In this document: piece after piece, positions 1 through 15,350 of the stretch
How positions within the stretch are numbered: position 1 is the stretch's first letter
Layout of the letters: each line of letters opens with the position of its first letter
Origin: Rhodospirillales bacterium
Lineage (GTDB): Bacteria > Pseudomonadota > Alphaproteobacteria > Rhodospirillales > Defluviicoccaceae
Length of the DNA stretch: 46,332 nt
Reading direction: 5' to 3'
NCBI GenBank assembly: GCA_007694935.1
Contig: REES01000100.1
Location: forward strand, 1-46,332
Notes under the pieces: generated by a model
What the model was told of the DNA's origin: nothing
The model's database searches: none
The model's input: only the letters and a program-made list of their open reading frames with translations
Made by a program: the position numbers and the translations under genes

Positions 1-265
1 AGCTGGCGGCATAGTCGAAGCCGGGGTCGGCGCGTTCGGCCCACTGACCGAGGGCATCGCCGTGCTGCTCCTCCTCTTGCCCCCACCGGATCGCCTCGGC
101 TCGGAAGGCATCGTCATCGGCGAACACATTGTGCAGATAGCTGACGTAGTCGGCGGCATTGCGCTCCACCAGGCTCGCCGCCTTGATCACCGGCACGATA
201 TCGGGATCGATCCGGGCCGGGTCGAGATCATCCCAAGGAATGTTGTCCAGGGTCCAGTTACCCAT
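1..265 (-). CDS. ferritin-like domain protein, 3' part beyond the window edge
   Basis: Reading the minus strand from an ATG at 265 gives 88 residues (MGNWTLDNIPWDDLDP...) before the window ends. The start is supported by GAGGAGGA placed just upstream (GAGGAGGACA then ATG). Residues 64-69 read EEEQHG, the ExxH-type diiron ligand motif of ferritin/rubrerythrin-like four-helix proteins, and Glu34 sits where the first helix normally supplies a ligand. I recall short alphaproteobacterial ferritin-like proteins with this same opening (NWTLDDIPWD-like). An iron-binding or oxidative role is therefore likely but untested. It is divergent from the molybdenum hydroxylase gene at 561. The C-terminal half cannot be judged. 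Confidence 0.72.
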   Translation of the reverse strand, partial: MGNWTLDNIPWDDLDPARIDPDIVPVIKAASLVERNAADYVSYLHNVFADDDAFRAEAIRWGQEEEQHGDALGQWAERADPGFDYAAS

Positions 266-560
266 TGTCCTCCTCAAATCATCCTCAATCCGACGTGGCC
301 GTGACCCTGCAGACATCGTTTCTTGGCCGGAAGCCTGGCTGGCCCCGGTGCTTTCGGCGGCGGATCATGCCGCCGGGAGCGTTGAAGTTCAACGGCCTGC
401 CCCCGCCACGGTCCCTCGGGTTCGACCCCAGCCGCCGCAGGGATGTTTTGGCGGATTGACGAACGCCGCAGCGACGGTTGACCCTGTCGGTTTGGCTGAT
501 CACTCTGCGGGACGGCCGGAGCAGACCATCGGCCGGCGATCTGGGCGGGGAGACACCGGG
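266..560. other. divergent intergenic region with two dyads
   Basis: This non-coding stretch separates the minus-strand ferritin-like gene from the plus-strand hydroxylase gene. It holds two inverted repeats. One is CGGCGGC-N7-GCCGCCG at 355-375, which could form a hairpin. The other is a perfect 15-base dyad at 380-394 (CGTTGAA-G-TTCAACG), compact enough for a dimeric repressor. I see no convincing -35/-10 pair on either strand. A link between either dyad and control of the flanking genes is inference. Confidence 0.4.
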
Positions 561-2888
561 ATGCAGCGCTTCGGATTGGGCCAGCCGGTGCGGCGGAGCG
601 AGGATCCGCGCCTGCTCACCGGCCGCGGCCGCTATGCCGCCGACGTGAGGTTACCCGGGGAGGCCCGCGCCGTGGTGCTGCGGAGTCCCCATGCCCATGC
701 CCGGATCCGGGCGATCGACACCACCAGGGCGCTCGCCATGCCGGGCGTGCTCGCGGTGCTGACCGGAGCGGATGTCGCGGCCGACGGCCTGGGCGAGGTT
801 CCCTGCTCGATCCGGGTGAACGGGCGGGATGGGCAGCGGATGCCGCGGCCTGGGCGGCCGCTGCTGGCGGCCGAGCGGGTGCGCTACGTCGGCGACGGGG
901 TGGCACTGGTGGTGGCCGAGACCCTGGCGACGGCGGTGGACGCGGCGGAGCGGATCGATGTCGACTACGACCCCCTGCCGGCGGTGGCGACCATCGAGGC
1001 GGCGGTAGCCGACGGGGCGCCGCCGGTGTGGGACGCGGTGCCGGACAACCGGGCGTTTTTCTGGCAGCGCGGCGATGGCGATGCGGTGGCGGCGGCGCTC
1101 GCCGGGGCCGATCGCATCGTCTCGCTCGCCCTCGCCAACAACCGGGTGGTGCCGTGCGCCATGGAACCCCGCGCCGCCGTCGGCGCGTTCGACGCCGCGA
1201 CCGGCCGCTACACCCTTTATACCTCCAGCCAGTCGCCGCACGGGGTGAAGAAGGGCCTGAGCGCTCACACCCTGAATGTTCCGGAGGAGATGGTCCACGT
1301 GATCGTCGGCGACGTCGGCGGCGGCTTCGGCACCAAGATCTTCCACTACCCGGAGGAGGCGCTGGTGCTGTGGGCGGCCCGCCGGATCGGCCGGCCGGTC
1401 AAGTGGGTGGGCGACCGCAGCGAGGCGTTCCTCGCCGATACCCATGGCCGCGACCAGCGCAACCGGTTGACCGCCGGGTTCACCGCCGACGGCCGGCTGC
1501 TGGCCCTGAAGGTTGAGAGCTTTGCCAACATGGGCGCCTATCTCAACTGCTTCGGTCCGGCGATCCCCACCGAGATGACCGGCTGCATGCTGTCGGGGGT
1601 CTATGCACTCCCGGCCCTCCATGCGGTCTGTGAAGGGGTCTATACCAATACGACGCCGGTGGACGCCTACCGCGGCGCTGGCCGGCCGGAAGCCAGCTAC
1701 ATGCTGGAACGGCTGATGGACGCCGCCGCCCGGGAACTCGGCCTGACGCCGGACGCGATCCGGCGGCTGAATTTCATCACTCCGGACCGGATGCCCTATC
1801 GCACCGTTACCGGCCCGGTCTATGACAGCGGCGATTTCGGCCGCCGCCTGGATGCCGCGCTCGCCAAGGCGGACTGGGCAGGTGCCGCCGGAAGGAAACG
1901 GGAAGCGGCGGCCCGCGGCAGCCTTCGCGGCATCGGCCTCTCCAGCTACGTGGAGATCTGCGGCTTCCAGGGCGAGGATGCCACCATCCGCTTCGCCGAC
2001 GGGGGGATCGAAGTGCTGGTCGGCACCCAGTCCACCGGCCAGGGGCACGAGACCGCCTACGCCCAGATTGTCGCAGAAACCCTGGGTGTGCCGTTCGACG
2101 CCGTCACCGTGGTGCAGGGGGATACCGACCGCATCCGGACCGGCCTTGGCACCAGCGGCTCGCGGTCGCTGCCGGTGGGCGGCCCGGCGGTGAAGCGGGC
2201 AGCGGAAGCGGTGATCGCCCGCGGGCGCGGCTTCGCTGCCCACCTGCTGCAGGCGGACGCGGGCGAGGTCCGCTTCGCCGAGGGGCGGTTCGAGACCGCC
2301 GGCGGCCGCGGCATTGACCTGATGGCGCTGGCCGAGGCGGCGACCGATCCGGCCAATCTTCCGCCGGGGGAGACGGTCGCCGTCCTCGATGCCACCGCCC
2401 GGTTCGATCTGGAGGCGTCAACCTTCCCCAACGGCTGCCACGTCTGCGAGGTCGAGGTGGACCCGGAGACCGGGCGGGTCACGGTGGTGCGCTACACAGT
2501 GGTCGATGACTTCGGCACGGTGGTCAACCCGTTGCTGCTGGCTGGTCAGGTGCACGGCGGCATCGCCCAGGGCATCGGTCAGGCGCTGATGGAGTTCACC
2601 GCCTACGACCCCGACTCGGCGCAGCTTCTCACCGCATCGTTCGTCGACTACGCGCTGCCGCGGGCGGCCGACCTGCCGGCGTTCGACATCGCTTTCGACG
2701 GCATTCCCTGCACCACCAATCCGCTCGGCATCAAGGGCGCGGGGGAGGCGGGGACGATCGGCGCCTGCCCGGCGGTGATCAACGCGGTGATCGATGCGCT
2801 GGCGCCCCTCGGCGTCACCCACATTGACATGCCGGCGACGCCGGAGGCAGTGTGGCGCACGATCCGGGCGGCCAAGACCGCCGCCTGA
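561..2888 (+). CDS. xanthine dehydrogenase/CoxL-family molybdopterin-binding large subunit
   Basis: This 775-residue protein is a molybdenum hydroxylase large subunit: an aldehyde oxidase/xanthine dehydrogenase a/b-hammerhead N-terminus (about 15-130) followed by the molybdenum-cofactor-binding domains. Visible motifs are GGGFGTK, AYRGAGR at 369-375, a cofactor-contact stretch GTQSTGQGHE, and KGAGEAG near the C-terminus with the expected catalytic Glu at about 729. AYRGAGR is the form II type; true form I CO dehydrogenase carries AYxCSFR, so CO oxidation should not be assumed and the substrate is unknown. The frame stays open further upstream, but ATG 561 begins the conserved MQRFGLGQPVRRSEDPRLLTG region and has GGGGAG upstream. 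The FAD and 2Fe-2S partner subunits are not in this window. Confidence 0.88.
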   Translation: MQRFGLGQPVRRSEDPRLLTGRGRYAADVRLPGEARAVVLRSPHAHARIRAIDTTRALAMPGVLAVLTGADVAADGLGEVPCSIRVNGRDGQRMPRPGRPLLAAERVRYVGDGVALVVAETLATAVDAAERIDVDYDPLPAVATIEAAVADGAPPVWDAVPDNRAFFWQRGDGDAVAAALAGADRIVSLALANNRVVPCAMEPRAAVGAFDAATGRYTLYTSSQSPHGVKKGLSAHTLNVPEEMVHVIVGDVGGGFGTKIFHYPEEALVLWAARRIGRPVKWVGDRSEAFLADTHGRDQRNRLTAGFTADGRLLALKVESFANMGAYLNCFGPAIPTEMTGCMLSGVYALPALHAVCEGVYTNTTPVDAYRGAGRPEASYMLERLMDAAARELGLTPDAIRRLNFITPDRMPYRTVTGPVYDSGDFGRRLDAALAKADWAGAAGRKREAAARGSLRGIGLSSYVEICGFQGEDATIRFADGGIEVLVGTQSTGQGHETAYAQIVAETLGVPFDAVTVVQGDTDRIRTGLGTSGSRSLPVGGPAVKRAAEAVIARGRGFAAHLLQADAGEVRFAEGRFETAGGRGIDLMALAEAATDPANLPPGETVAVLDATARFDLEASTFPNGCHVCEVEVDPETGRVTVVRYTVVDDFGTVVNPLLLAGQVHGGIAQGIGQALMEFTAYDPDSAQLLTASFVDYALPRAADLPAFDIAFDGIPCTTNPLGIKGAGEAGTIGACPAVINAVIDALAPLGVTHIDMPATPEAVWRTIRAAKTAA

Positions 2889-2910
2889 CTTCAGGAAAGG
2901 TGGGAAGCCG

Positions 2911-3705
2911 GTGCCGCTTGAGATCACCCCGGACCTGGTGGACACGGTCCGCGCCATCGCGCTGGAGGCCGGCCGGGCCATTCTCGACGTCTATCACTCC
3001 GATTTCACTGTCCGGCACAAGGGTGACCGGTCGCCGGTCACCGAGGCCGACGAGCGTGCCGAGACGCTGATCATCAATGCCATCCGGTCCAGGGTCGGCG
3101 ACCACTTCCCGATCGTCGCCGAGGAAGCGGCGGAAGCCGGCAGCATCCCGGAGGTGGGCGATGCGCCGTTCTGGCTGGTCGACCCGCTGGACGGCACCAA
3201 GCAGTTCGTCAACCGCCAGGGCGAGTTCACCGTCAACATCGCGCTGATCGAGCATCGCCTCCCGCAGCTCGGGGTGATCCACGCGCCGGCTATCGGCGCC
3301 ACCTACTGGGGCAGCGCACAGGGTGCCTTTGCCGAAACCGAGGGCGCCCCGGCCCGGGCGATCGCCTGCCGGCCGCTGCCGGAGAAGCGGCTGGTGGCGG
3401 TGGCCAGCCGGTCCCACCGCAATGTCGAGACCGATTCCTACCTCGCCAGCCACGATGTGGCGGAGATCATGTCCTCCGGCAGCTCGATCAAGTTCTGCCT
3501 TGTGGCCAGCGGCCGGGCCGACGTCTACCCACGGCTGGGGCGGACCATGGAATGGGATACCGCGGCCGGCCACGCGATCGTCCGGTTCGCCGGTGGCACG
3601 GTCACCGACATGGCGGGGATCGAGCTGCTCTACGCCAAGCCGGGGTTCGAGAATCCCTCGTTCGTCGCCCGCGGCGCCCCGCCGGTGCCGCCGGGACGCC
3701 GGTGA
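2911..3705 (+). CDS. cysQ: 3'(2'),5'-bisphosphate nucleotidase, inositol monophosphatase family
   Basis: CysQ hydrolyses 3'-phosphoadenosine-5'-phosphate to AMP, clearing a by-product of sulfate assimilation and sulfotransfer. The 264-residue product shows the family metal sites: EEAAEAG in the middle of the N-terminal half, DPLDGTKQF (the DPxDGT motif) and WDTAAGHAIV near the C-terminus. The GTG start at 2911 is chosen because AGGAAAGGTGG lies just upstream and the family N-terminus begins there. A longer open frame into the preceding gene is not conserved. It overlaps the next gene by GTGA. Other inositol-phosphatase-family substrates (inositol-P, histidinol-P) cannot be excluded, but the KQFVNRQGEFTVNIALIE stretch favours CysQ. 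Confidence 0.85.
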   Translation: MPLEITPDLVDTVRAIALEAGRAILDVYHSDFTVRHKGDRSPVTEADERAETLIINAIRSRVGDHFPIVAEEAAEAGSIPEVGDAPFWLVDPLDGTKQFVNRQGEFTVNIALIEHRLPQLGVIHAPAIGATYWGSAQGAFAETEGAPARAIACRPLPEKRLVAVASRSHRNVETDSYLASHDVAEIMSSGSSIKFCLVASGRADVYPRLGRTMEWDTAAGHAIVRFAGGTVTDMAGIELLYAKPGFENPSFVARGAPPVPPGRR

Positions 3706-4742
3706 GCGGGGACGCCGGCGCCCCAGGGCCGCTGATCGTCGCTCCGTCGCCGGCGGCGATCGGGGCGGCCGCCGAGGCCATCCGCCGGGGTGAGCTGGTC
3801 GCCTTCCCGACCGAGACGGTGTACGGCCTCGGCGTCGATGCCGGGAACGATCGGGCGGTGGCGGCGGTGTTCGCCGCGAAAGGGCGCCCCCGCTTCAACC
3901 CTTTGATCGTCCACGCCTGCGGCCGTACCGCCGCGGACGCGGTCGCCCGCTTCGATGAGCGGGCGCGGGCACTGGCCGATGCGCTGTGGCCGGGGCCGCT
4001 AACCCTGGTGCTGCCACGCCGGGCGGGGGCCGGCGTGTCCCTGCTGGCGACCGCCGGGCTCGACACGGTGGCGGTGCGGGTGCCCGATCATCCGGTGGCT
4101 CTCGCGCTGCTGCAGGCCTGCGGCCGGCCGATTGCCGCCCCCAGCGCCAACCGCTCCGGGGGGGTCAGCCCCACCACCGCGGCTCACGTCGCCGCCGATC
4201 TGGGCGACCGGGTGGCGATGGTGCTGGATGGCGGGCCATGCCGGATCGGCGTGGAGTCCACGGTGGTCGACATCACCGGGCCGGCGCCGGTGCTGCTCCG
4301 CCCCGGCGGCACCGCGGTGGAGCGGCTGCATGCCCTGATCGGTCCGCTCGAGGCGGCGTCGGGCGGCCCGCCCCGCTCCCCCGGCCTGCTCCGCCGCCAT
4401 TATGCGCCGGCCCGCCCGGTGCACCCGGATGCCGAGGCGGCCGGGGCGGGGGCGGCGTTCCTCGCCTTCGGCCCCGGCTGGCCGGATGCCGACCGCAATC
4501 TCAGCGCCTCAGGCAGTCTGGAGGAGGCCGCGGCCAACCTGTTCGCCATGCTGCGCGCCCTGGACCGGGAGCCCTTCCGGGCGATTGCGGTGGCGCCGAT
4601 CCCGCGCCACGGTCTCGGCCTTGCCATCAACGACCGCCTGTCGCGGGCGTCGGCGCCGCCGGCACCGCCGCCCGGGGAGGATGACTGGGACGATGAACGC
4701 GGCCCATCGGTTCCCTGCGTTCTGCCGGGGGACGAGGTGTGA
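3702..4742 (+). CDS. tsaC: L-threonylcarbamoyladenylate synthase, two-domain TsaC/Sua5 type
   Basis: This enzyme makes threonylcarbamoyl-AMP from threonine, bicarbonate and ATP, the first step of t6A formation at position 37 of ANN-decoding tRNAs. The 346-residue product has a YrdC domain (roughly 10-200; FPTETVYGLG, KGRPRFNPLIVH, SANRSGG, GVESTVVD) and a shorter C-terminal Sua5 domain reached through a linker containing SPGLLRRHYAP. The length fits the two-domain form rather than the ~190-residue TsaC. Start is GTG 3702, which overlaps the cysQ stop as GTGA, so translation is probably coupled. The C-terminal tail is proline- and acid-rich and probably unstructured. Confidence 0.88.
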   Translation: MSGDAGAPGPLIVAPSPAAIGAAAEAIRRGELVAFPTETVYGLGVDAGNDRAVAAVFAAKGRPRFNPLIVHACGRTAADAVARFDERARALADALWPGPLTLVLPRRAGAGVSLLATAGLDTVAVRVPDHPVALALLQACGRPIAAPSANRSGGVSPTTAAHVAADLGDRVAMVLDGGPCRIGVESTVVDITGPAPVLLRPGGTAVERLHALIGPLEAASGGPPRSPGLLRRHYAPARPVHPDAEAAGAGAAFLAFGPGWPDADRNLSASGSLEEAAANLFAMLRALDREPFRAIAVAPIPRHGLGLAINDRLSRASAPPAPPPGEDDWDDERGPSVPCVLPGDEV

Positions 4743-4902
4743 ACTGCAAACGGCATGGCGCGGATCGGCCGGTGCGGCATCCTGCAGGATGACCGTGTAT
4801 GGGCAAGCGGCTCTCCTCTCCGGCTCGATGCGACACCGGACAGATCACGTGTGCCCTGCCCTGCCCTGCTCTGGTCAGGTGCCGGGTTACCGACATGCGG
4901 CA

Positions 4903-4946
4903 CAATCATGAGTTGCTAGAATCCAAGGGTTGAGCTAGTCTGCGGG
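4903..4946 (+). promoter_or_regulatory. duplicated promoter segment, copy 1
   Basis: CAATCATGAG (4903-4912) is followed by TTGCTA (4913-4918), a 17-base spacer and TAGTCT (4936-4941), then GCGGG. The same arrangement recurs at 5990-6033: 16 bases are identical through TTGCTA, spacer length is the same, and the -10 half is conserved (CTAGTYTGMGGG). The geometry fits a sigma-70 promoter with a conserved element directly upstream of -35 that could bind an activator. Transcription would start near 4949, leaving about 300 bases before the GNAT start. Confidence 0.55.
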
Positions 4947-5021
4947 TTAAGCGGCGGTGCGGTTTTCCCCCACCCCGGGCTCGGGCGTGCAGGCGGGTGG
5001 TGGCACATGTTATCGTCAGTG

Positions 5022-5130
5022 CCGGCCAAGGCGACCGCCTCGGTACTCGGCTGCCTCGGCGGGGCCCACCATCTGCCGGCCGACAAGGTTCGGTTGCCGC
5101 GGGCGGTTACCACCGCCAGATGAGATTTCG
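5022..5130 (+). pseudogene. 3' remnant of a second PLP-dependent decarboxylase
   Basis: In the frame read from 5007, the codons at 5034-5105 read TASVLGCLGGAHHLPADKVR then LPRA. The intact decarboxylase at 7657-8883 has TASVVGCLCTPLDLLADKVR then LPRA near its C-terminus. DNA identity is also evident (GCCGGCCAAGGCGACCGCCT versus GCCGGCCGAGGAGACCGCCT). After PRA the homology breaks, but in another frame 5110-5130 reads PPPDEIS, matching the intact C-terminus PPPMEILV. That would be explained by an internal deletion of about 26 codons with a frameshift. The cysteine of the CTPLD motif is absent. This is a non-functional fragment; the first part of the match is strong, the PPPDEI part weaker. Confidence 0.6.
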
Positions 5131-5253
5131 ACGGTCGCGCCGACCTTTCCGGTGTTTCGGACCAAATGTCGGCTTGCGGTGCGAGATGGAAACGTGACGA
5201 GCATGTCTCCCGGGCCTGCCCTTGATGGATGCGCGGCCGCGTCGAAGGATCCG

Positions 5254-5976
5254 ATGGCTGGATCGTCGTTGGCCTTCAGCCGAGGCTGGGACCGGCTGAT
5301 TCCCAATGGCCGCGAGCTCGGCGTTGCTGCCGCGCTCTGCTACAACGCCGACCGGGTGCTGCAGAAGCTTTCGATTCCAGTCCGGGTGTATCGCTACGCC
5401 CTGGTGGCCCAGCCGGTGCCGCCTCGACCGGTGCTGGCCGGTCGGCGGGGTGTGTCCATCGAGGTGCGACAGATCTCCCCCTTGGAGCCCGCCCTCCTCG
5501 GCATGGAAATCACCTCTGACATTCTCGCGTTCCGGGCAACTCAGCGCCCGCTCTGCTTCGCAGCCTACAAGCAGGATGTTATGATCGGCTGCCTGTGGTT
5601 TTGTCTCGGTCCGTATCACGAAGACGAGGTCCGCTGCCTGTTCGCACCAGTACCCGCTGGGACCACGGCGTGGGACTTTGGGGCATATGTGCTGCCGGAC
5701 CATCGCAGCAGTTTGGCTTTCCTCCGGTTATGGGACGCTGCCAATGCCTATCTGCGGGATCGGGGCGTCAGATGGTCGCTCAGCCGCATTTCTGCATACA
5801 ATCTTGCGTCCCTGCGTTCGCACGGCAGCCTCGGCACGATTCCCCTCGGTGTCGCGACATTCATCTGCTGTGGCCGGCGGCAGCTGATGTGGAGTACGCT
5901 CGAACCGCGATTGCACGTCTCCACCGGCACGCATGATGTCCCGGCTCTCACGGTGCGTGCACCCCTGCGGCCTTGA
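5254..5976 (+). CDS. GNAT-like acyltransferase (probable)
   Basis: A 240-residue product whose C-terminal half looks like a GNAT fold: WDFGAYVLPDHR, LWDAANAYLRDRGVRWSLSR and YNLASLRSHGSLGTIPLG correspond to the end of the acyl-CoA-binding strand-helix unit and the N-x-x-S-x-x-x-H-x-x-LG ending of the family. The usual R/QxxGxG/A pyrophosphate loop is degenerate (HRSSLAF), so catalytic activity is uncertain. ATG 5254 is chosen for GAAGGA four bases before it; GTG 5194 or ATG 5203 in the same frame are alternatives. It lies between two copies of the same promoter. Codon use is less GC-biased than in its neighbours, suggesting transfer. It probably belongs with the ligase-decarboxylase-amidase-like trio. 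Confidence 0.6.
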   Translation: MAGSSLAFSRGWDRLIPNGRELGVAAALCYNADRVLQKLSIPVRVYRYALVAQPVPPRPVLAGRRGVSIEVRQISPLEPALLGMEITSDILAFRATQRPLCFAAYKQDVMIGCLWFCLGPYHEDEVRCLFAPVPAGTTAWDFGAYVLPDHRSSLAFLRLWDAANAYLRDRGVRWSLSRISAYNLASLRSHGSLGTIPLGVATFICCGRRQLMWSTLEPRLHVSTGTHDVPALTVRAPLRP

Positions 5977-5989
5977 CGCTCGCGGTATG

Positions 5990-6033
5990 CAATCATGAGT
6001 TGCTAAGATATATCGGCTAGACTAGTTTGAGGG
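5990..6033 (+). promoter_or_regulatory. duplicated promoter segment, copy 2
   Basis: CAATCATGAG (5990-5999), TTGCTA (6000-6005), a 17-base spacer and TAGTTT (6023-6028) repeat the order and spacing of copy 1 at 4903-4946. Start of transcription is expected near 6036, giving a leader of about 30 bases before the ligase ATG at 6065. Because the -35, the upstream element and the spacer length are all kept while the spacer sequence varies, conservation looks functional rather than merely recent. Confidence 0.6.
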
Positions 6034-6064
6034 TGTCGCAGCCGTGCCTACGTGGAGAATCATG

Positions 6065-7660
6065 ATGGCGCAGGATCTGGTGCAACAACTCATCGAAGCG
6101 CGAGCCGGCGTTTCTCCTGAATCGATCGCCATCCGTCATCGTCAGGACGCCATCAGCTACGGCGCGCTTTCAGCGGCGATCCAGCAGTTCGCCGGGGCGC
6201 TCGGGGCTCTGGGTATCGCCCGCTCAGAGCGCGTCGCCGTCTATCTGGAGAAGCGGCCTGAGACGGTGATTGCCATGTTCGGCGCTGCCGCTGCCGGCGC
6301 TGTGTTCGTGCCGGTGAACCCGTTCCTGCGCTCGCGCCAAGTCGTGCACATTATCAAGGACTGCAATGTGCGGGTGCTGGTGACTTCGGCGAGCCGGCTG
6401 AGCGGACTGGCGGACGTACTTGCGGACTGCCCGGATCTGAGGGCCGTCATTCAGGTGGATGGAAACGCCGACACCGAGATGGCGGATGGGGTCTCCGTGG
6501 TGGACTGGCCGGCAGCCATGGCCACGGGTGCGCCGCCCCAAGGGCTGCGGGGCACCATCGATGCGGACATGGCGGCCATCTTCTACACCTCCGGCAGTAC
6601 CGGTTCGCCAAAGGGTGTGGTGCTGTCCCATCGCAATCTGGTGGCCGGCGCCACCAGCGTCAGCAGCTATCTCGGTAATGTGCCGGAGGACCGCATTCTC
6701 TCCGTGCTACCGCTCAGCTTCGATGCTGGCTTCAGCCAGCTCACCACGGCATTCCGGGTGGGGGCGGAGGTGGTGTTGCTCAACTACCTCACGCCGCGTG
6801 ACGTGGTGCAGGCGTGCGCTGCCCATCGAATCACCGGCCTGACTGGCGTACCGCCGCTCTGGATCCAGCTCGCCCAACTGGACTGGCCCACGGATGCGAC
6901 AGCCGGAATTCGGTACTTCGCCAACACCGGCGGCCGCATGCCTCGGACCACGCTCAGCCGGCTCCGCACCCTTATGCCGCACGCCAAGCCGTACCTGATG
7001 TATGGTTTGACCGAGGCTTTCCGCTCCACCTACCTGGATCCGAATGAAGTGGACCGCCGCCCGGACTCCATTGGCAAGGCGATCCCCAACGCGGAAATCC
7101 TGGTGGTGGGCGCGGATGGCCGGCTGTGCGGCCCCGGCGAGGAGGGCGAACTGGTGCACCGCGGTGCGCTGGTGAGCCTCGGCTACTGGAACGATCCGGA
7201 GCGCACGGCCGCGCGATTCCGGCCGGTGCCGGCGGCGATTTCAGGGCTTTGTCTTCCAGAAGTCGCGGTCTGGTCCGGCGACATGGTCCGCATGGACGAG
7301 GACGGCTTTCTCTACTTCGTCGGCCGTAACGACGATATGATCAAGACCTCGGGGTACCGCGTGAGCCCGACCGAGATCGAGGAGGTGGTTTATGCCTCCG
7401 GCCTGGTTGCCGAGGCGGCGGCGCTCGGCCTTCCCCACCCGGTGCTTGGGCAGGCCATAGCGGTGGTGGCATCGGCACCGGCAGACGGGCGTCTCGAGAT
7501 CGAGGCGCTGATGGATCATTGCCGCCGCGAACTGCCTCTTTACATGGTGCCGACCCTGATCGTGGAACGCGCCGCCCTGCCCCGCACCCCCAACGGCAAG
7601 ATGGACCGCAAGCAGATGGCACTGGAGCTGAACGATCCGTTCATGAGGGCTGCCGAGTGA
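6065..7660 (+). CDS. AMP-forming acyl/amino-acyl ligase, exosortase-A-cluster type
   Basis: A 531-residue adenylate-forming enzyme. It carries the core motifs in order: YTSGSTGSPKGV from Tyr174, YGLTEAFRSTYLDP, GDMVRMDEDGFLYFVGRNDD, the hinge KTSGYRVSPTEIEEV, and PRTPNGKMDRKQ with the C-terminal catalytic lysine. Overall it resembles the acyl-CoA ligase family found beside exosortase A. The expected reaction is activation of a carboxylate as AMP ester and transfer to CoA or a carrier; the substrate is unknown. GTG 6044 and ATG 6062 are in frame, but ATG 6065 has GGAG seven bases upstream. It overlaps the decarboxylase by GTGA and is driven by promoter copy 2. No carrier-protein gene is adjacent. 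Confidence 0.82.
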   Translation: MAQDLVQQLIEARAGVSPESIAIRHRQDAISYGALSAAIQQFAGALGALGIARSERVAVYLEKRPETVIAMFGAAAAGAVFVPVNPFLRSRQVVHIIKDCNVRVLVTSASRLSGLADVLADCPDLRAVIQVDGNADTEMADGVSVVDWPAAMATGAPPQGLRGTIDADMAAIFYTSGSTGSPKGVVLSHRNLVAGATSVSSYLGNVPEDRILSVLPLSFDAGFSQLTTAFRVGAEVVLLNYLTPRDVVQACAAHRITGLTGVPPLWIQLAQLDWPTDATAGIRYFANTGGRMPRTTLSRLRTLMPHAKPYLMYGLTEAFRSTYLDPNEVDRRPDSIGKAIPNAEILVVGADGRLCGPGEEGELVHRGALVSLGYWNDPERTAARFRPVPAAISGLCLPEVAVWSGDMVRMDEDGFLYFVGRNDDMIKTSGYRVSPTEIEEVVYASGLVAEAAALGLPHPVLGQAIAVVASAPADGRLEIEALMDHCRRELPLYMVPTLIVERAALPRTPNGKMDRKQMALELNDPFMRAAE

Positions 7661-8883
7661 ACGACCTGAGCCCCGCAAGCGCCAGGTTCGCGATCGCGGA
7701 CAGCGACCTCCTGGTCGGCGGTATTCCGCTCGGGCGGCTTGCCGAACGGGTCGGGTCCACCCCGTTCTTCGCTTACGACCGGCAATTGCTGACCGAACGC
7801 ATACGCTGGCTCAGACAGTGCCTGCCCGAGGGGGTGGCGCTCAGCTATGCCGTCAAGGCCAATCCGATGCCGGCGGTGGTGCAGCATCTCGCCACCCTGG
7901 TGGACGGCTTCGACGTCGCCTCGGCCCGGGAGATGCAGATCGCGCTGGATACACCCGTGACCCCGGCGCACGTCAGCTTCGCCGGCCCCGGCAAGACCGA
8001 TGCGGAACTGCGGCAGGCCATCGCGGCCGGGATCATCATCCATGTGGAGAGCGAAGGGGAACTGACCCGGCTCGACGGTCTGGCGCGCCGGTCCGGCCAC
8101 CGGCCGGAGGTGGCACTCCGCGTCAACCCGGATTTCGACCTCAAGGCCTCGGGCATGCGCATGGGCGGCGGGGCGCAGCAGTTCGGCATCGATGCGGAAC
8201 GGGTGCCCGAGGTGCTGGGCAGGATGCACGGGCTCGATGTCGACTTCGTCGGCTTTCATATCTACGCGGGTTCGCAGAACCTGAACGCCGACAGTCTGAT
8301 GGAGGTCCAGGAGAAGACCCTCGAACTGGCCGTTCGGCTTTCATGTCATGCGCCGTCGCCCGTGCGCCATCTCAACATCGGTGGCGGCTTCGGAATACCC
8401 TATTTCCCGAAGGATCATCCGCTGGATGTAGCCCTCGTGGGCGGGCGGCTCGGTGCCTTGATGCCCGAGTTGCAGCGTACCCTGCCGGAAGCCCGGGTTG
8501 TTGTTGAACTCGGTCGCTACATCGTCGGCGAATGCGGCATCTACGTCAGCCGGATCGTCGACCGCAAGGTATCGCGGGGACAGGTCTTCCTCATTACCGA
8601 CGGTGGTCTCAACCACCATCTCGCCGCCTCCGGCAACTTCGGCCAGGTGATCCGCCGCAACTACCCCGTGGCCATCGGCAACCGCATGGCCGCGCCGGCC
8701 GAGGAGACCGCCTCGGTGGTGGGATGCCTGTGCACCCCGCTCGATCTGTTGGCCGACAAGGTCCGGCTGCCGCGGGCGGAGGTCGGCGACCTGGTCGTGA
8801 TCTTCCAGTCCGGCGCCTATGGCCCCACGGCGAGCCCCACCCGATTCCTGGGCCACCCGCCGCCGATGGAGATCCTGGTATGA
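7657..8883 (+). CDS. fold-type III PLP-dependent decarboxylase (ornithine/diaminopimelate decarboxylase family)
   Basis: A 408-residue alanine-racemase-fold decarboxylase. Visible parts are YAVKANP with the PLP-binding Lys67, FHIYAGSQN, the phosphate loop GGGFG at 242-246, ELGRYIVGECG, and CTPLD with the substrate-cleft Cys359 contributed across the dimer. Its closest type, as I recognise it, is the exosortase-A-associated decarboxylase rather than LysA or SpeC; the amino-acid substrate is not predictable. GTG 7657 overlaps the ligase stop, with GAGGG seven bases upstream. The 3' end overlaps the next gene by ATGA, so the trio is one translationally coupled unit. A decayed partial copy lies at 5022-5130. 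Confidence 0.82.
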   Translation: MNDLSPASARFAIADSDLLVGGIPLGRLAERVGSTPFFAYDRQLLTERIRWLRQCLPEGVALSYAVKANPMPAVVQHLATLVDGFDVASAREMQIALDTPVTPAHVSFAGPGKTDAELRQAIAAGIIIHVESEGELTRLDGLARRSGHRPEVALRVNPDFDLKASGMRMGGGAQQFGIDAERVPEVLGRMHGLDVDFVGFHIYAGSQNLNADSLMEVQEKTLELAVRLSCHAPSPVRHLNIGGGFGIPYFPKDHPLDVALVGGRLGALMPELQRTLPEARVVVELGRYIVGECGIYVSRIVDRKVSRGQVFLITDGGLNHHLAASGNFGQVIRRNYPVAIGNRMAAPAEETASVVGCLCTPLDLLADKVRLPRAEVGDLVVIFQSGAYGPTASPTRFLGHPPPMEILV

Positions 8884-10871
8884 CGGTTGACCTGATTCGC
8901 AACCGGACCGATGCGGCGGCCGGTCGGCTCTGGGGTGTGTGCGGCTGGCTCGGCGGTTCGCCGCCGTACTCCGGGCGTGAAGCGGCGCTCTGCACGCTCC
9001 ACGCCATGGCCGATCCGCGCTGGCGGCGGTCCCGCGCCCGGGTCCACGCCGAACCGGGTGCTGCCGTGATGCTCTCCGATGACACCCCCGGAGCGGACAT
9101 TGCCGCAGCGGATGGCATGACCGTCGCCTTGTTCGGCTACCCGCGCTGGAACACCGCCGCGAGCGCAGAGACGGCGGCGCAAAGTGGCCACGCCGCGGCG
9201 GCATTACAAGCCTATCGGCAGGATCCGGATGGTCTGCTGTCCGACCTGGACGGACACTTCGGCCTGGTCGTGCTGGACCCGGCGCGCAAGCGGGCGCTCA
9301 TTGCCACCGACCGTGCCGGCATCCATCCGATGTTCTATGCGCGCTTGCCCGATGGCGGCGTGGCCTTCGCCACCAGTGCCACCGCGCTCGCCCGCCATCC
9401 GGCGGATTTCTCTACGGTGTCACCGCAGGCGGTGTTCGACTACCTGTTCTTCTATCGCGTCCCCGCCCCGCTTTCGATCTTTGAGGGGCAGCGCAAGCTG
9501 ATGGCGGCGCAGGCGCTCAGGGTCGCCGATGGGCAGCACCGGCTCGACTTCTACTGGCAGATGCCGTTCCGGAGCGATGGGGAGCGCGATCGGACCCGCC
9601 TGAAAAACGGACTGTTCCACGCCCTCCGGCAAGCCGTCCGGGACGGTGCGGGGGGGGCGGACTGGGCAAAGACCGGCGCGTTCCTGAGCGGCGGCCTGGA
9701 CAGCTCCGCCGTGGTCGGTCTGCTCAGCGAACTGTCGGCCGAGCCGGCCAAGGCTTTCACCGTCGGTTTCGACCACGAAGCTTATGACGAGACCGGGTAT
9801 GCCCGAATCGTTGCCGAGGCGTTCGGTGCCACCCACTACGTCCACCGCGTCACCGATGACCATGTCCTCGAATCCGTCACCCGGATTGCCGAGGCGTATG
9901 ATGAGCCGTTCGGCAACTCCTCGGCGGTCGCGGTCTATCATTGCGCGAAGTTCGCCCAAGAGCACGGCATCGAGCTGCTGCTCGCCGGAGACGGCGGCGA
10001 CGAATTGTTCGCCGGCAACCAGATTTATCTGCGCGTGAAGACCTTTGATCTGTACCGGCACCTACCGGGACCGGTCCGCCGGTCCCTGATCGATCCGATG
10101 GTCGACCGCCTCACGAGATTGGATTGGTTCCTCCCGTGGCGGAAGGTGCGGCGCTACGTTTCCCAGGCCAACATGCCGATGCCGGAGCGAATGGTGGAAG
10201 CCCAGCTGGGGACCTACCTCGGTGCGGGGGATGTGCTGGAGCCTCGGCTGACCCATGCGGTGGATCCCGGCCATCCGATCGACCTGCTGCGGGAGGTGTA
10301 CCATCGCCCGCATGATGCGGCGCTTGAACAGCGCATGCATCAGCTCGAATTGCAGACCGTGATGGCGGACAACGACCTCCGCAAGGTCAACCGGATGTGC
10401 GAGCTGGCGGGCATCCGCGTCCGCTTCCCGATGCTGGATACCCGGGTGATGACGTTCTCGGCCGGCATCCCGCCGCAGTTTCTGCTCGAGGGATTGCAGC
10501 TTCGCGCGTTCTACAAGCGGGCCCTGCGCGGCTTCCTGCCCAAGGCCACGATCGCCAAGCGCAAGCACGGTTTCGGGCTTCCCAGCGCGCCGTGGCTGGC
10601 GCCGGGGACCCGGTTGCACCAGCTGGCCTGCGACAGCCTGGCGTCCCTCAAGCGGCGCGGGGTGGTGAACAAGGATTTCATTGAAGGCATCCTCGAACGG
10701 CATCGCCGCACCGGCCACAAGGTCGATGCCGGACCGATCTGGGACCTGATGATGCTGGAATTGTGGTGGCAGGCCCATGGCGGCGCCACCGCCGCCGGCA
10801 CGGACCATGCCGCGCCCTGGACCGACGGCCAGAGCGACCGCGACCGGATGCCGACCGCCCGCGCCGGCTGA
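8880..10871 (+). CDS. asparagine-synthetase-like amide ligase with remodelled glutaminase domain
   Basis: The 663-residue product has an Ntn-type N-terminal region and an intact ATP-pyrophosphatase synthetase domain: SGGLDSS from residue 270, LLAGDGGDELFAGN, and a C-terminal RKHGFGLPSAPW segment. The N-terminus is unusual. From the well-placed ATG at 8880 (GGAG eight bases upstream, ATGA overlap) the sequence reaches CGWLGG only at Cys21, whereas active glutaminases have Cys directly after Met. The NGEIYN motif is also replaced by FGYPRWN. An in-frame GTG at 8937 would put that Cys at position 2. Either a propeptide is cleaved, the start is internal, or the domain no longer uses glutamine, as in beta-lactam synthetase. 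It is the last gene of the trio. Confidence 0.78.
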   Translation: MTVDLIRNRTDAAAGRLWGVCGWLGGSPPYSGREAALCTLHAMADPRWRRSRARVHAEPGAAVMLSDDTPGADIAAADGMTVALFGYPRWNTAASAETAAQSGHAAAALQAYRQDPDGLLSDLDGHFGLVVLDPARKRALIATDRAGIHPMFYARLPDGGVAFATSATALARHPADFSTVSPQAVFDYLFFYRVPAPLSIFEGQRKLMAAQALRVADGQHRLDFYWQMPFRSDGERDRTRLKNGLFHALRQAVRDGAGGADWAKTGAFLSGGLDSSAVVGLLSELSAEPAKAFTVGFDHEAYDETGYARIVAEAFGATHYVHRVTDDHVLESVTRIAEAYDEPFGNSSAVAVYHCAKFAQEHGIELLLAGDGGDELFAGNQIYLRVKTFDLYRHLPGPVRRSLIDPMVDRLTRLDWFLPWRKVRRYVSQANMPMPERMVEAQLGTYLGAGDVLEPRLTHAVDPGHPIDLLREVYHRPHDAALEQRMHQLELQTVMADNDLRKVNRMCELAGIRVRFPMLDTRVMTFSAGIPPQFLLEGLQLRAFYKRALRGFLPKATIAKRKHGFGLPSAPWLAPGTRLHQLACDSLASLKRRGVVNKDFIEGILERHRRTGHKVDAGPIWDLMMLELWWQAHGGATAAGTDHAAPWTDGQSDRDRMPTARAG

Positions 10872-10914
10872 ACTGCACCGCACCGCCAGACGTCAAGGGC
10901 GACAAGCGGGGTTC

Positions 10915-11538
10915 TCACCCCCATGCCGCGCGCAGGCGGGCGTGGTTGGCGCGGAACCAGTGGAGCGCCACCACCGCGACGGCGTTGACGATGCGCCCGC
11001 TGTCCAGCCACTCGAACGCCTCCTCCGGCGGGACCACCAGCACCCGGATGTCCTCGTGCTCATGGGCGATGCCGGCAAACGCGGTGGCCTCGTCGGCGTC
11101 GATCCGCCCGCAGTAGATGGCGACAGTCTCGCTGCTGCCGCCGGGGCTGGCCAGCACCCGGCACACCGGCACGAGCTCCCGGACGGTGCAGCCGGCTTCC
11201 TCAACCGTCTCCCGCCGCGCGACGGCTTCGGGGGTTTCGCCCTCATCGATGATGCCGGCCACCATCTCGATCAGCCAGGGCGAGACCGTCTCGGGAAGCC
11301 AACCGGTGCGGGCGGCGGCAAAGGCGCCGGCGCGAAACTGCTCGATCAGCACCAGGCAGTTGCGGACCGGATCGAATGGGATCACCGCCACGGCATGGCC
11401 GCGTTCGAACACCTCCCGGACCATCGGCGTGCTCCAGCCGCCGTCGAACAGGCGGTGCCGGAGGCGATAGCGATCGACCCGAAAGTAGCCCTGATGGCAG
11501 GTTTCCTGGGCGAGAACCTCGACATCGTTCTCGGTCAC
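10915..11538 (-). CDS. NUDIX hydrolase, ADP-ribose pyrophosphatase type
   Basis: A 207-residue protein with a complete NUDIX box in the middle: G-x5-E-x7-RE-x2-EE-x-G, read from GIIDEG through RRETVEEAG. Upstream PETVSPWLIEMVAGI and downstream LASPGGSSE are typical of the ADP-ribose diphosphatase (NudF) group, which hydrolyses ADP-ribose to AMP and ribose 5-phosphate with Mg2+. Start is GTG 11538, with AAGGGGA upstream. It is convergent with the amide-ligase gene (43-base gap) and divergent from hpnM. The context gives no further hint of substrate. Confidence 0.83.
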   Translation of the reverse strand: MTENDVEVLAQETCHQGYFRVDRYRLRHRLFDGGWSTPMVREVFERGHAVAVIPFDPVRNCLVLIEQFRAGAFAAARTGWLPETVSPWLIEMVAGIIDEGETPEAVARRETVEEAGCTVRELVPVCRVLASPGGSSETVAIYCGRIDADEATAFAGIAHEHEDIRVLVVPPEEAFEWLDSGRIVNAVAVVALHWFRANHARLRAAWG

Positions 11539-11684
11539 GGCTGTCCCCTTTGCCTGTGCCTCGCTGCCGCCTTGTCGCAGATGCCGGGAGTGTCGGCAAC
11601 CGGGCAGGGGCCGCTCGCATTGCAGGGGCGCCCCCGGGGGGTTACATCAAGCGCACTGTTTGTGACCGACCCGAGGATCGATCG

Positions 11685-12320
11685 ATGACCGGTACGTTTC
11701 TCTTCCGTCACCGCATGATGGCGGTGACGGCGCTGATCCTGACCCTGGCGCTGCTGCTGTCGGCGCCTTTGGCGGCGTCCGAGCCGGCGCGCCGGTTCAT
11801 CAGCGAAGCGGCGGATGCGGCGATCGCGGCAATGGTCGAGCCGGGACTGTCCGAGGCCGAGCGCGAGCAGAGGGTGCGTTCCCTGCTCAATCAGCACTTT
11901 GCGGTCGAGGACATCGCCCGGTTCGTGCTGGGCCGGCACTGGCCGCGTGCCACCGAGGCGGAGCGCCAGGAATACCTCCGGCTGTTCGAGGACATCATCG
12001 TATTCGCCTACATGGATCGGTTCGACCGGTTCACCGGCGAGAGCATGACGGTCGGCGCGGTGACGCCCACCGGCGTCCCCGGCGAGGTGGTGGTGCAGAC
12101 CGAGTTCACCCAGCCGCGCGGCACCCGCCCGGTCCAGGTGGGCTGGCGGCTGCGTGAGACCGACGGCAGCTTCGAGGTCATCGATGTGGTCGTCGAGAAC
12201 GTGAGCATGAGCCAAACCCAGCGCTCCGAGTTTGCTTCGGTGGTGCGGCGAAGCGGCGGGCGCATCCAGGGGCTCTTGGCCGAGATGCGCACCCTGAGGG
12301 AGACCTTCCGTTCGTCGTGA
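11685..12320 (+). CDS. hpnM: hopanoid-associated MlaC/Ttg2D-type periplasmic protein HpnM
   Basis: A 211-residue protein that begins with a basic n-region and a hydrophobic stretch ending in PLAASEP, a likely Sec signal peptide cleaved near residue 33. The rest is the MlaC/Ttg2D fold: a helical section (LSEAEREQRVRSLLNQHFAVEDIARFVLG) and a lipid-pocket section (FDRFTGESMTVGAVTP ... VVVENVSMSQTQRSEFASVVRR). HpnM is thought to act with the RND protein HpnN in carrying hopanoids to the outer membrane; HpnN is encoded at 21687-24329. ATG 11685 has GAGGA seven bases upstream. It opens the plus-strand hopanoid operon. Confidence 0.82.
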   Translation: MTGTFLFRHRMMAVTALILTLALLLSAPLAASEPARRFISEAADAAIAAMVEPGLSEAEREQRVRSLLNQHFAVEDIARFVLGRHWPRATEAERQEYLRLFEDIIVFAYMDRFDRFTGESMTVGAVTPTGVPGEVVVQTEFTQPRGTRPVQVGWRLRETDGSFEVIDVVVENVSMSQTQRSEFASVVRRSGGRIQGLLAEMRTLRETFRSS

Positions 12321-12368
12321 TCGGGGTCGGCTTGCCGAAATCCCGGTCGTCCGAAGGGGGCGCCAGAC

Positions 12369-13232
12369 GTGACCAGCACAGCGGCGGCAGCCGATCCCTT
12401 GGGGGTTGAGACACCGTCCGGCAAGGATGCGGCCTACGAGAACTTCCCGGTGGGCTCGTGGCTGCTGCCGGCGGCGCTGCGTCCCCATGTCGCCGTCTTC
12501 TATGCGTTCGCCCGCGCCATCGACGACATCGCCGACAACCCGGACTTGGCGCCCGAGGACAAGGTTCGACGGCTCGACGGCTTCGAGCAGGCATTGACCA
12601 CCGCCGATTCGGAACCGCCCGGCTTTGCCAAGGCCTGCGCCATGCGGCACACCCTGGTCGCAACCGGGATCACCGACCGCCATTGCCGCGACCTGATCGA
12701 CGCGTTCAAGCAGGACGCGATGCAGAGCCGATACCGGACTTGGCATGAACTGATCCACTACTGCAACCGGTCGGCGGCGCCGGTCGGCCGTTTCCTGCTG
12801 GACCTTCACGGCGGCTCCCGCCACGGCTATGGCCCGTGCGATGCGCTCTGCAACGCCTTGCAGGTGATCAACCACCTGCAGGACTGCGCCGACGACTACC
12901 GGACCCTGGATCGAGTTTATCTTCCGCTCGACTGGATGGACGAGGCCGGAGCCGAGGTGGCGGACCTCGGCCGACCGGGGACAACGCCGGCCCTGCGCCG
13001 GGTGATTGATCGCACCCTCGACCATACCGAGACGTTGCTGGCCGACGCCGCGCCCCTGCCAAGCGGGCTCGCCAGCCGGCGGCTCGCGCTGGAATCGGCG
13101 GCGATCCTGGCGATCGCCTGGGCGCTGGTGCGCCGGCTGCGGCGGCGGGACCCGCTTGCCCGGCGGGTCCGGCTGAGCAAGCCGGAATACCTCGCCTGCT
13201 GCCTCCGCGGTGCCGCCTCCGTGTTGGTCTGA
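12369..13232 (+). CDS. hpnC: hydroxysqualene synthase HpnC
   Basis: A 287-residue trans-isoprenyl diphosphate synthase of the squalene/phytoene synthase family. The two Asp-rich motifs are DDIADN (in FARAIDDIAD) and DCADD (in HLQDCADDYRTLDRVYLP). In the three-step bacterial route HpnD makes presqualene diphosphate, HpnC converts it to hydroxysqualene, and HpnE reduces that to squalene. The order hpnC-hpnB-hpnD-hpnE here and the opening AAYENFPVGSWLLP identify it as HpnC rather than HpnD. The start GTG 12369 has only a weak GGGGG stretch upstream and could be a few codons off. It is 48 bases downstream of hpnM. Confidence 0.88.
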   Translation: MTSTAAAADPLGVETPSGKDAAYENFPVGSWLLPAALRPHVAVFYAFARAIDDIADNPDLAPEDKVRRLDGFEQALTTADSEPPGFAKACAMRHTLVATGITDRHCRDLIDAFKQDAMQSRYRTWHELIHYCNRSAAPVGRFLLDLHGGSRHGYGPCDALCNALQVINHLQDCADDYRTLDRVYLPLDWMDEAGAEVADLGRPGTTPALRRVIDRTLDHTETLLADAAPLPSGLASRRLALESAAILAIAWALVRRLRRRDPLARRVRLSKPEYLACCLRGAASVLV

Positions 13233-13239
13233 GGCGCCG

Positions 13240-14415
13240 ATGACCACGGCCCTCGTCACCGCGGCCGCGGCCGTCGCCGTCCTCATCTGGGTCTGGCTGA
13301 TGGCATTACGCGGCGGGTTCTGGCGGGCGGATGTGCGGCTGCCGGAACGGGTTGATGAGCTCGGCCGGTGGCCGGTGGTGACCGCGGTGATCCCGGCGCG
13401 CAACGAGGCGGAAACCGTGGGCCGTGCGGTGACCTCGCTGCTGCGCCAGGACTATCCCGGCGATCTGGACATTGTGGTGGTGGACGACGGGAGCGACGAT
13501 GGCACCGCCGACCACGTCGCCGCTGCGGCGGCAGGCTCGGAGCGGGTGCACCTGGTGGCCGGCGCGCCGCTGCCGGCGGGCTGGGTCGGCAAGATGTGGG
13601 CGGTGGCCCAGGGGATCGACCATGCCGAGCGGGTCAGGCCGGAAAGCCGCTACCTGCTGCTGACCGATGCCGACATCGAACACGCGCCCGCCAGCCTCCG
13701 GCGGCTCGTGGGCAAGGCGGAGTCCGAGGGCCGGCTGCTGGTGTCGCTGATGGTATTGCTGAGCGCCCGGCATTTCTGGGAACGGCTGCTGATCCCGGCG
13801 TTCGTGTTCTTCTTCCAGAAGCTGTACCCGTTCCGCTGGGTCAACGACCCAGCCAAGCCCACCGCGGCGGCGGCCGGCGGCTGCATGCTGGTGAACCGGC
13901 AGGCGCTGGATGCCATCGGCGGGATCGCCGCGGTGCGAGGCGAACTGATCGACGATTGCGCCCTGGCCCGGCGGATCAAGGCGCGGGGGCCGATCTGGCT
14001 CGGCCTTGCCACCGATACCCGCAGCCTCCGCCACTATCCCGGGCTTGCCGGGCTATGGGACATGGTGGCCCGTACCGCCTACACCCAACTGGGCTATTCT
14101 CCCCTGGCGCTTCTCGGCACGGTGGCCGGGATGACCCTGACCTACCTCGCGGCACCGCTGGCGGTTGCCTGCGGCATCTCGACCGGCAGCGTTGCTCCCG
14201 CGCTGCTCGGGGTGACGGCGTGGGCACTGATGGTCGTGGCGGCGCGGCCCACCCTTGCGCTCTACCGGCTTACCGGGTGGTGGGGCGTGCTTTTGCCTTT
14301 CGCGGCACTGCTGTTTACCCTTATGACCCTGGACTCGGCGCGACGGCACGGCCAGGGCCGGGGCGGCACCTGGAAGGGGCGCAGCTATGGCACGATCGGG
14401 GCTGGGCAGCCGTAA
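13240..14415 (+). CDS. hpnB: hopanoid-associated family 2 glycosyltransferase HpnB
   Basis: The 391-residue product has an N-terminal membrane segment (about 3-25), a GT-A domain beginning VTAVIPARNEAETVGRAV with the nucleotide/metal motifs DDGSDD and TDADIEH, and about three to four hydrophobic segments in the C-terminal third. This is the layout of HpnB, found in many hopanoid clusters; its acceptor is not settled, so a role in hopanoid side-chain glycosylation is a family expectation only. ATG 13240 follows GAGG with five bases between and lies seven bases after the hpnC stop. It is co-transcribed with hpnC and hpnD by position. Confidence 0.85.
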   Translation: MTTALVTAAAAVAVLIWVWLMALRGGFWRADVRLPERVDELGRWPVVTAVIPARNEAETVGRAVTSLLRQDYPGDLDIVVVDDGSDDGTADHVAAAAAGSERVHLVAGAPLPAGWVGKMWAVAQGIDHAERVRPESRYLLLTDADIEHAPASLRRLVGKAESEGRLLVSLMVLLSARHFWERLLIPAFVFFFQKLYPFRWVNDPAKPTAAAAGGCMLVNRQALDAIGGIAAVRGELIDDCALARRIKARGPIWLGLATDTRSLRHYPGLAGLWDMVARTAYTQLGYSPLALLGTVAGMTLTYLAAPLAVACGISTGSVAPALLGVTAWALMVVAARPTLALYRLTGWWGVLLPFAALLFTLMTLDSARRHGQGRGGTWKGRSYGTIGAGQP

Positions 14416-14477
14416 CCGTACGGGCCGACCCGGCGTGCGACAGGCACTGGCTCTGAAGGGGACGTGAGTTTCGATCC

Positions 14478-15350
14478 ATGCCGAAGGGGCCGCAAAGCGA
14501 GGATCAGACGGTGGCGGACGAGGTCGTCCGCCGGTCCGGGACATCGTTCTATTGGGCGATCCGGATGCTGCCGGAAGCGAAGCGGCGGGCGATGTTCGCG
14601 ATCTATGCGTTCTGCCGGGAGGTGGACGACATCGCCGACGATCCCGGAACCGTCGACGGCAAGCGGGCGCGCCTGAACGCCTGGCGAGAGGAGATCGGCC
14701 GGCTCTATGCCGGCCGGGACGGCGGTGACGCGGGTCCGGCGATGCCGATCGCGCGGGCCTTGGCCGAACCGGTCCGGCACTTCCAGCTTCGCCGGGACGA
14801 TTTCGAGGCGGTGATCGCCGGCATGGAAATGGATGCCGCCCCGCGGGTGCGCATGCCGGACGATGCCGAACTGACGCTGTACTGCGACCGGGTCGCCGGC
14901 GCGGTGGGCCGCCTGTCGGCACGGGTGTTCGGTGCCGATGCCGCCACCGCCGACCGTCTCGCCGCCGCCCTGGGCGAGGCGTTGCAGCTCACCAACATCC
15001 TCCGCGACCTGAAGGAGGATGCCGACCGTGACCGCTTGTATCTGCCGGCTGATCGCCTCGCGGCAGAGGGGGTCGACGCGGATGCCGCTGCCGCTTCGGT
15101 GCTGGCGGAGCCCGGCACCTGGGCGGTGTGCGACCGGCTCGCCGTGCGCGCGCGGGACCGCTTCGAGGCGGCGGAGACGATCCTGTCCCGGTGCGACCCG
15201 CAGCAGATGCGCCCGGCCGTGATGATGATGGAGGTCTACCGTCGGACCCTGCGGCGCCTGATGCAGCGGGGCTGGCAGCGGTTCGCCGAGCCCGCCGGCG
15301 TGCCTCGTCTGGAGAAGCTCTGGGTCGCCTTCCGCTACGGCGTGCTGTAG
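14478..15350 (+). CDS. hpnD: presqualene diphosphate synthase HpnD
   Basis: A 290-residue squalene/phytoene-synthase-family enzyme that condenses two farnesyl diphosphates to presqualene diphosphate. It has the usual opening SFYWAIRMLPEAKRRAMFAIYAFCREVDDIAD with the first Asp motif, YCDRVAGAVG in the middle, and the second Asp motif in LTNILRDLKEDADRDRLYLP. These are closer to phytoene-synthase-like HpnD than to HpnC. The start ATG 14478 has a poor Shine-Dalgarno (GGGGACGTGAG lies further off), but alignment with the family N-terminus supports it. Between hpnB and this gene are 62 non-coding bases. Confidence 0.9.
   Translation: MPKGPQSEDQTVADEVVRRSGTSFYWAIRMLPEAKRRAMFAIYAFCREVDDIADDPGTVDGKRARLNAWREEIGRLYAGRDGGDAGPAMPIARALAEPVRHFQLRRDDFEAVIAGMEMDAAPRVRMPDDAELTLYCDRVAGAVGRLSARVFGADAATADRLAAALGEALQLTNILRDLKEDADRDRLYLPADRLAAEGVDADAAAASVLAEPGTWAVCDRLAVRARDRFEAAETILSRCDPQQMRPAVMMMEVYRRTLRRLMQRGWQRFAEPAGVPRLEKLWVAFRYGVL

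Follow-up and report, generated by a model that had tools for sequence, protein, structure and literature searches.

Evidence for a decayed copy of a decarboxylase gene tail in front of an acetyltransferase-like gene in a Rhodospirillales bacterium

Results

Organization of the Locus

The window analyzed here, a stretch of 46,332 nt of DNA from a Rhodospirillales bacterium, is one contig (G000:C124) out of the 145 in which a 3.09 Mb genome is assembled. The region of interest begins with a gene for Sua5 (query range 3702-4742; TIGR00057, above its cut-off). It continues on the forward strand with the first copy of a repeated upstream element (4903-4960), a short segment that is tentatively a ligase remnant (4968-5005), a decayed decarboxylase remnant (5021-5106) and a gene for a GNAT-like acetyltransferase (5254-5976). 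The second copy of the element (5990-6047) precedes an intact ligase gene (6044-7660; TIGR03098, 787.6 bits against a cut-off of 592.35), and this is followed by an intact decarboxylase gene (7519-8883; TIGR03099, 616.3 bits against a cut-off of 478.45, with the profile match starting at 7687), all on the same strand. By the curated NCBIfam cut-off the latter gene product is a member of TIGR03099, and it is the only match above the cut-off in the genome, with two further matches falling below it. The designation of the TIGR03098 (acyl-CoA ligase) and TIGR03099 pair as "exosortase A system-associated" is that of NCBIfam, and the genome does contain two exosortase matches above the Pfam cut-off, both on other contigs. 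Downstream of the decarboxylase lies an asparagine-synthase-like gene, for which the best matches, TIGR03108 and TIGR01536, are both below their cut-offs, and beyond it are hopanoid genes, including one for HpnC (above its cut-off).

The match of the window's acetyltransferase to Pfam Acetyltransf_1 (E 0.0096) is below the cut-off, so the name is weakly supported for this protein, and it is better supported by a Thauera homologue (E 1.1e-5, above the cut-off). Homologues are found in seven of 317 genomes of the order, this one included (E up to 1e-10), and among 385 sampled genomes of the class only in this one (E up to 1e-15), while a search of plasmids gave no match. The open frame of the gene begins at GTG 4957, ends at 5976 and crosses the decarboxylase remnant in another frame. 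Translation more probably starts at ATG 5254, as judged from the arrangement AAGGA-TCCG-ATG and from a similarly arranged start region in the genome of the same genus (G001), with GTG 5194 as the alternative. Both of these starts are well downstream of the remnant, so that the 5' end of the frame that opens at 4957 is probably non-coding.

The Decarboxylase Remnant

The segment at 5021-5106 aligns with positions 8694-8779 of the intact decarboxylase gene, about 3.7 kb downstream, over 86 nt without gaps and with 78% identity, and this pair ranks first of the 39 direct-repeat families in positions 1-15000 of the window. Many short matches arise in GC-rich sequence, but the local score of 77 compares with maxima of 33 in 300 shuffles and 29 in 162 comparisons for which other parts of the window, on both strands, served as controls, and the protein score of 83 with a maximum of 48 in 500 shuffles, and chance similarity in GC-rich DNA can for practical purposes be discounted. 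Read in frame, the segment gives PAKATASVLGCLGGAHHLPADKVRLPRA, of which 19 of 28 residues are identical to the corresponding part of the intact protein, PAEETASVVGCLCTPLDLLADKVRLPRA. It is only 28 codons long and contains no complete TIGR03099 frame, and under strict scoring the alignable part stops abruptly at both ends. An earlier note made from the sequence alone had matched 5034-5105 to the C-terminal part of the decarboxylase; that match is borne out, although its 5' edge was placed slightly short since the alignment begins at 5021. The same note saw a further match, "PPPDEI," at about 5110-5127, and this we drop as part of the remnant since its score of 27 is equaled by 49 of 1000 shuffles; the DNA from 5100 onward likewise scores only 17 against the end of the decarboxylase gene, compared to a shuffle mean of 16.3. 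A longer alignment obtained with lax scoring (4869-5192 against 8509-8872; 162.5 versus a shuffle maximum of 136.5) was set aside because the 86-base core drives its score. Reading 5021-5106 as a decarboxylase tail that was copied and has since decayed is well supported.

To place the remnant among its relatives it was compared with eleven decarboxylases, namely the window's own, nine above-cut-off homologues found elsewhere in the order and, from genome G019, a divergent second decarboxylase, which was aligned over 81 bases. The same-genus genome was left out, as the corresponding part is missing there. The remnant is closest to the window's own decarboxylase, with 65 of 84 nt in common versus 29 to 57 for the ten others, and an origin from the divergent G019 decarboxylase was rejected, with only 4 of 28 residues in common. 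Judged against six intact homologues as referees, the 19 differences between remnant and intact gene comprise 14 that are derived in the remnant, four that are derived in the intact gene and one that is ambiguous. The differences of the remnant are spread over the three codon positions as 8/4/7 (n = 19), whereas in each of the six comparisons tallied between an intact homologue and the window's gene the third position has the most differences (for example, 3/3/14). In addition, the motif CLCTPLD has become CLGGAHH in the remnant. Among the referees it is CLCTPLD in five and CLCTPID in the sixth, and among all ten other decarboxylases it is CLCTPLD in six, CLCTPID in one and PLCTPLD in two, with only the divergent G019 protein lacking it. 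The remnant therefore appears to have evolved under relaxed constraint, as far as the small number of 19 differences indicates. Because it is nearest to the genome's own gene, because changes on the remnant branch dominate and because the motif is destroyed, the remnant is best regarded as a copy, now dead, that shares its lineage with the present gene, an argument that rests in the main on 84-86 nt and, for the codon-position contrast, on the 19 differences.

The 14 changes in 84 bases on the remnant branch correspond to about 0.19 per site (Jukes-Cantor, calculated by hand), whereas at four-fold sites in three genes this genome and that of the same genus differ by 0.59 per site, or about 0.30 per lineage. 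Hence the duplicate probably arose after the two species split or at about the same time, and given the few bases involved it may also be older.

The Repeated Upstream Element and a Tentative Ligase Remnant

The two upstream elements, at 4903-4960 and 5990-6047, are 71% identical over 58 nt and share 16 consecutive identical bases. Their local score of 35 compares with maxima of 29 in 1066 control pieces and 33 in 300 shuffles. In the whole 3.09 Mb genome the exact 15-base word AATCATGAGTTGCTA has just two occurrences, at 4904 and 5991; there is one further site with two mismatches, and a reversed control word likewise gave one site. In the relatives' loci (L033-L053) no site was found with three or fewer mismatches, except for one with three in L051, and in the same-genus genome the gap in front of the acetyltransferase gene gives scores of 12 and 16 with the two elements, compared to shuffle means of about 16. 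A scan of 4700-6200 for the sigma-70 consensus, which addresses that promoter type only, lists neither copy. The first copy is a possible promoter of the lost unit, and the earlier note had it driving the GNAT gene; as the scan lists neither element, that this putative promoter now drives the acetyltransferase gene is no more than an inference. We also looked upstream of element 1 for what might be left of a first copy of the acetyltransferase gene and found none, as 4760-4903 against 5700-5990 scores 16 with a shuffle mean of 17.7.

Between the first element and the decarboxylase remnant, the segment at 4968-5005 resembles positions 7433-7471 of the ligase gene, which encode PHPVLGQA (PHPxLGxA in common). 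With three gapped scorings none of 201 control stretches equaled this match and 1, 0, and 1 of 300 shuffles did so, while two ungapped scorings gave 15 and 20 controls out of 201 that equaled it. At the protein level it was equaled by 15 of 500 shuffles, and one of the eleven other window proteins, a GT2, scored above the ligase (36 versus 34). These figures are somewhat flattered, because the segment was tested after a first alignment had pointed to it (29 versus a shuffle maximum of 28). We list it tentatively as a probable ligase remnant; element 1, this scrap and the decarboxylase scrap stand in the same order as in the intact unit.

Comparison With Relatives

A decarboxylase above the TIGR03099 cut-off is present in only one of the eleven genomes of the family, the one analyzed here, and in ten of 317 in the order. 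Six of the seven genomes that contain the acetyltransferase also have an above-cut-off decarboxylase, the exception being G001, of the same genus. This genome has two decarboxylase homologues well below the cut-off elsewhere, and at its acetyltransferase gene only profile positions 374-398 are matched. On the contig with this gene, which we take to be REEP01000089.1 (locus L011; fused gene at 6001-6561), the acetyltransferase frame runs to FGAY, residue 166 of the 260 in the window protein, and then, with the rest of the acetyltransferase dropped, continues in frame into the decarboxylase tail GRTASPTGFLSHPSPVEVLV, with the asparagine-synthase-like gene next downstream. Of the 90 bases to the left of the junction, 73 agree with the acetyltransferase gene and 33 with the decarboxylase, and of the 72 to the right, 54 agree with the decarboxylase and 29 with the acetyltransferase gene. 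About 3.1 kb is absent in terms of the window, and a pattern common to the junction, GGNGCNTAYG, can be read by eye. As assembled, the fusion looks as if it resulted from a deletion of about 3.1 kb at some ten similar bases, and it could also be an assembly error. On the sequences compared, G001 has lost its ligase and decarboxylase through a deletion that is different from that at the present locus.

Neither remnant nor element was found before the acetyltransferase gene in G001, the one same-genus genome compared, and the stretch after Sua5 has no match in that genome (42 versus a shuffle maximum of 46). Upstream of its acetyltransferase gene is a gene for the regulator PrsR (TIGR02915, above the cut-off) instead of Sua5. 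The PrsR orthologue of the present genome is on another contig, where it is followed by what is presumably a flippase gene. The two species therefore differ by an upstream rearrangement in addition to the deletion. The Sua5 gene of G001 is at a contig end (L081, G001:C50) and is followed by a transposase-like gene (4790-5388), which we take to be of the IS110 type.

The earlier note had proposed looking in relatives for an intact second decarboxylase and ligase before the GNAT gene, and in the stretches fetched from relatives there is no such intact unit in the same direction. This says little because only one same-genus genome was compared. G019 comes nearest. Its above-cut-off pair lies upstream of the acetyltransferase gene and points the other way, and a second, divergent pair, below both cut-offs, lies downstream on the strand of the acetyltransferase gene. 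This divergent pair brackets genes for subunit E of methylaspartate mutase (above the cut-off) and a GlmL-like protein (below), all on one strand (L034, C222:16000-34000, 843-7202), and together they possibly represent one pathway with glutamate mutase chemistry. In another genome (G016:C74, L035/L089), the acetyltransferase gene directly precedes the decarboxylase gene with about 70 bases between them, and no ligase match was found in two stretches that jointly span the 30.5 kb contig (the genome is 76% complete).

Discussion

We propose that the decarboxylase remnant probably arose by duplication of the whole unit of element, ligase and decarboxylase, followed by near-complete deletion. The upstream element, the ligase and the decarboxylase would have been duplicated together, the extra ligase-decarboxylase copy would have become redundant, and deletions would have taken nearly all of it. 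What was left over, in the original order, would be the element at 4903-4960, possibly some 38 nt of the ligase at 4968-5005 and 86 nt of the decarboxylase, and these leftovers would now stand in front of the acetyltransferase gene with the scrap in its leader. The unit-wise duplication and the order of the deletions are what we infer, and duplication of a unit is favored because of the tentative collinear ligase scrap and because the element word is unique to two sites in the genome. This is also the history put forward in the earlier note, that of a duplicated ligase-decarboxylase unit from which most was lost, and it is the best one on the present evidence; the copied decarboxylase tail has held up well, the ligase part is tentative and the intact counterpart in a relative was not seen.

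An alternative that deserves weighing, unlikely as we judge it, is that only the decarboxylase tail was ever copied, as a rearrangement scar formed when the acetyltransferase-ligase-decarboxylase block joined Sua5, with no ligase copy at any time and with the element copied independently. The different upstream neighbor in the same-genus genome, PrsR and not Sua5, places a rearrangement breakpoint immediately before the acetyltransferase gene in one or the other species, and the abrupt ends of the alignable remnant would also suit a scar. Against this, the upstream element and the tentative ligase scrap keep the order that duplication of a whole unit would give.

It is far less probable that the scrap has been kept as a functional sequence, with either a short frame or a leader RNA regulating the acetyltransferase gene. 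ATG 5007 does open a frame of 38 codons (5007-5123) that encloses the remnant and ends with TGA at 5121-5123, but the differences are spread over the codon positions and no counterpart was found before the same-genus acetyltransferase gene. A regulatory leader RNA was likewise rejected, as the fold of 4945-5205 has a z of 0.42 and is equaled or bettered by 133 of 200 shuffles, and a search of 4700-6100 against Rfam gave no match at E up to 1. The decarboxylase scrap is thus probably unselected and without a function of its own.

Gene remnants that are left after duplication and deletion are a known class of pseudogene fragment in bacteria. The remnant is the same in kind, as it too is a short truncated copy near its parent, with the dead branch more changed and a conserved motif lost, and what differs is that here the scrap may have left a putative promoter element to a live neighboring gene. 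With respect to the TIGR03098/TIGR03099 pair, both parent genes pass the curated cut-offs for membership, in a genome that also has exosortase matches, whereas the remnant, at 28 codons, is not a gene. Among the papers searched, none joins exosortase, PEP-CTERM, decarboxylase and acyl-CoA ligase, and none names TIGR03099. PrsR appears in the main text of PMC1569441, and in that main text neither a decarboxylase nor a ligase was found.

The remnant is an ordinary gene fossil, an instance of gene loss that reveals no new system, and it is one in which gene decay can be read base by base. It also carries a warning against annotating the acetyltransferase gene from its outermost start, as the first 79 codons of that open frame (4957-5193) take in the dead scrap in a frame other than its own. 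The comparison within the genus adds that the ligase-decarboxylase pair was lost in the other species through another deletion. We suggest, tentatively and with more doubt than confidence, that the acetyltransferase-ligase-decarboxylase block is prone to deletion, with two different scars in two species of one genus, the tail remnant here and the fusion in the other. If short shared sequences are what repeatedly removes the ligase-decarboxylase pair, these loci would document on a small scale how exosortase-associated gene sets disappear.
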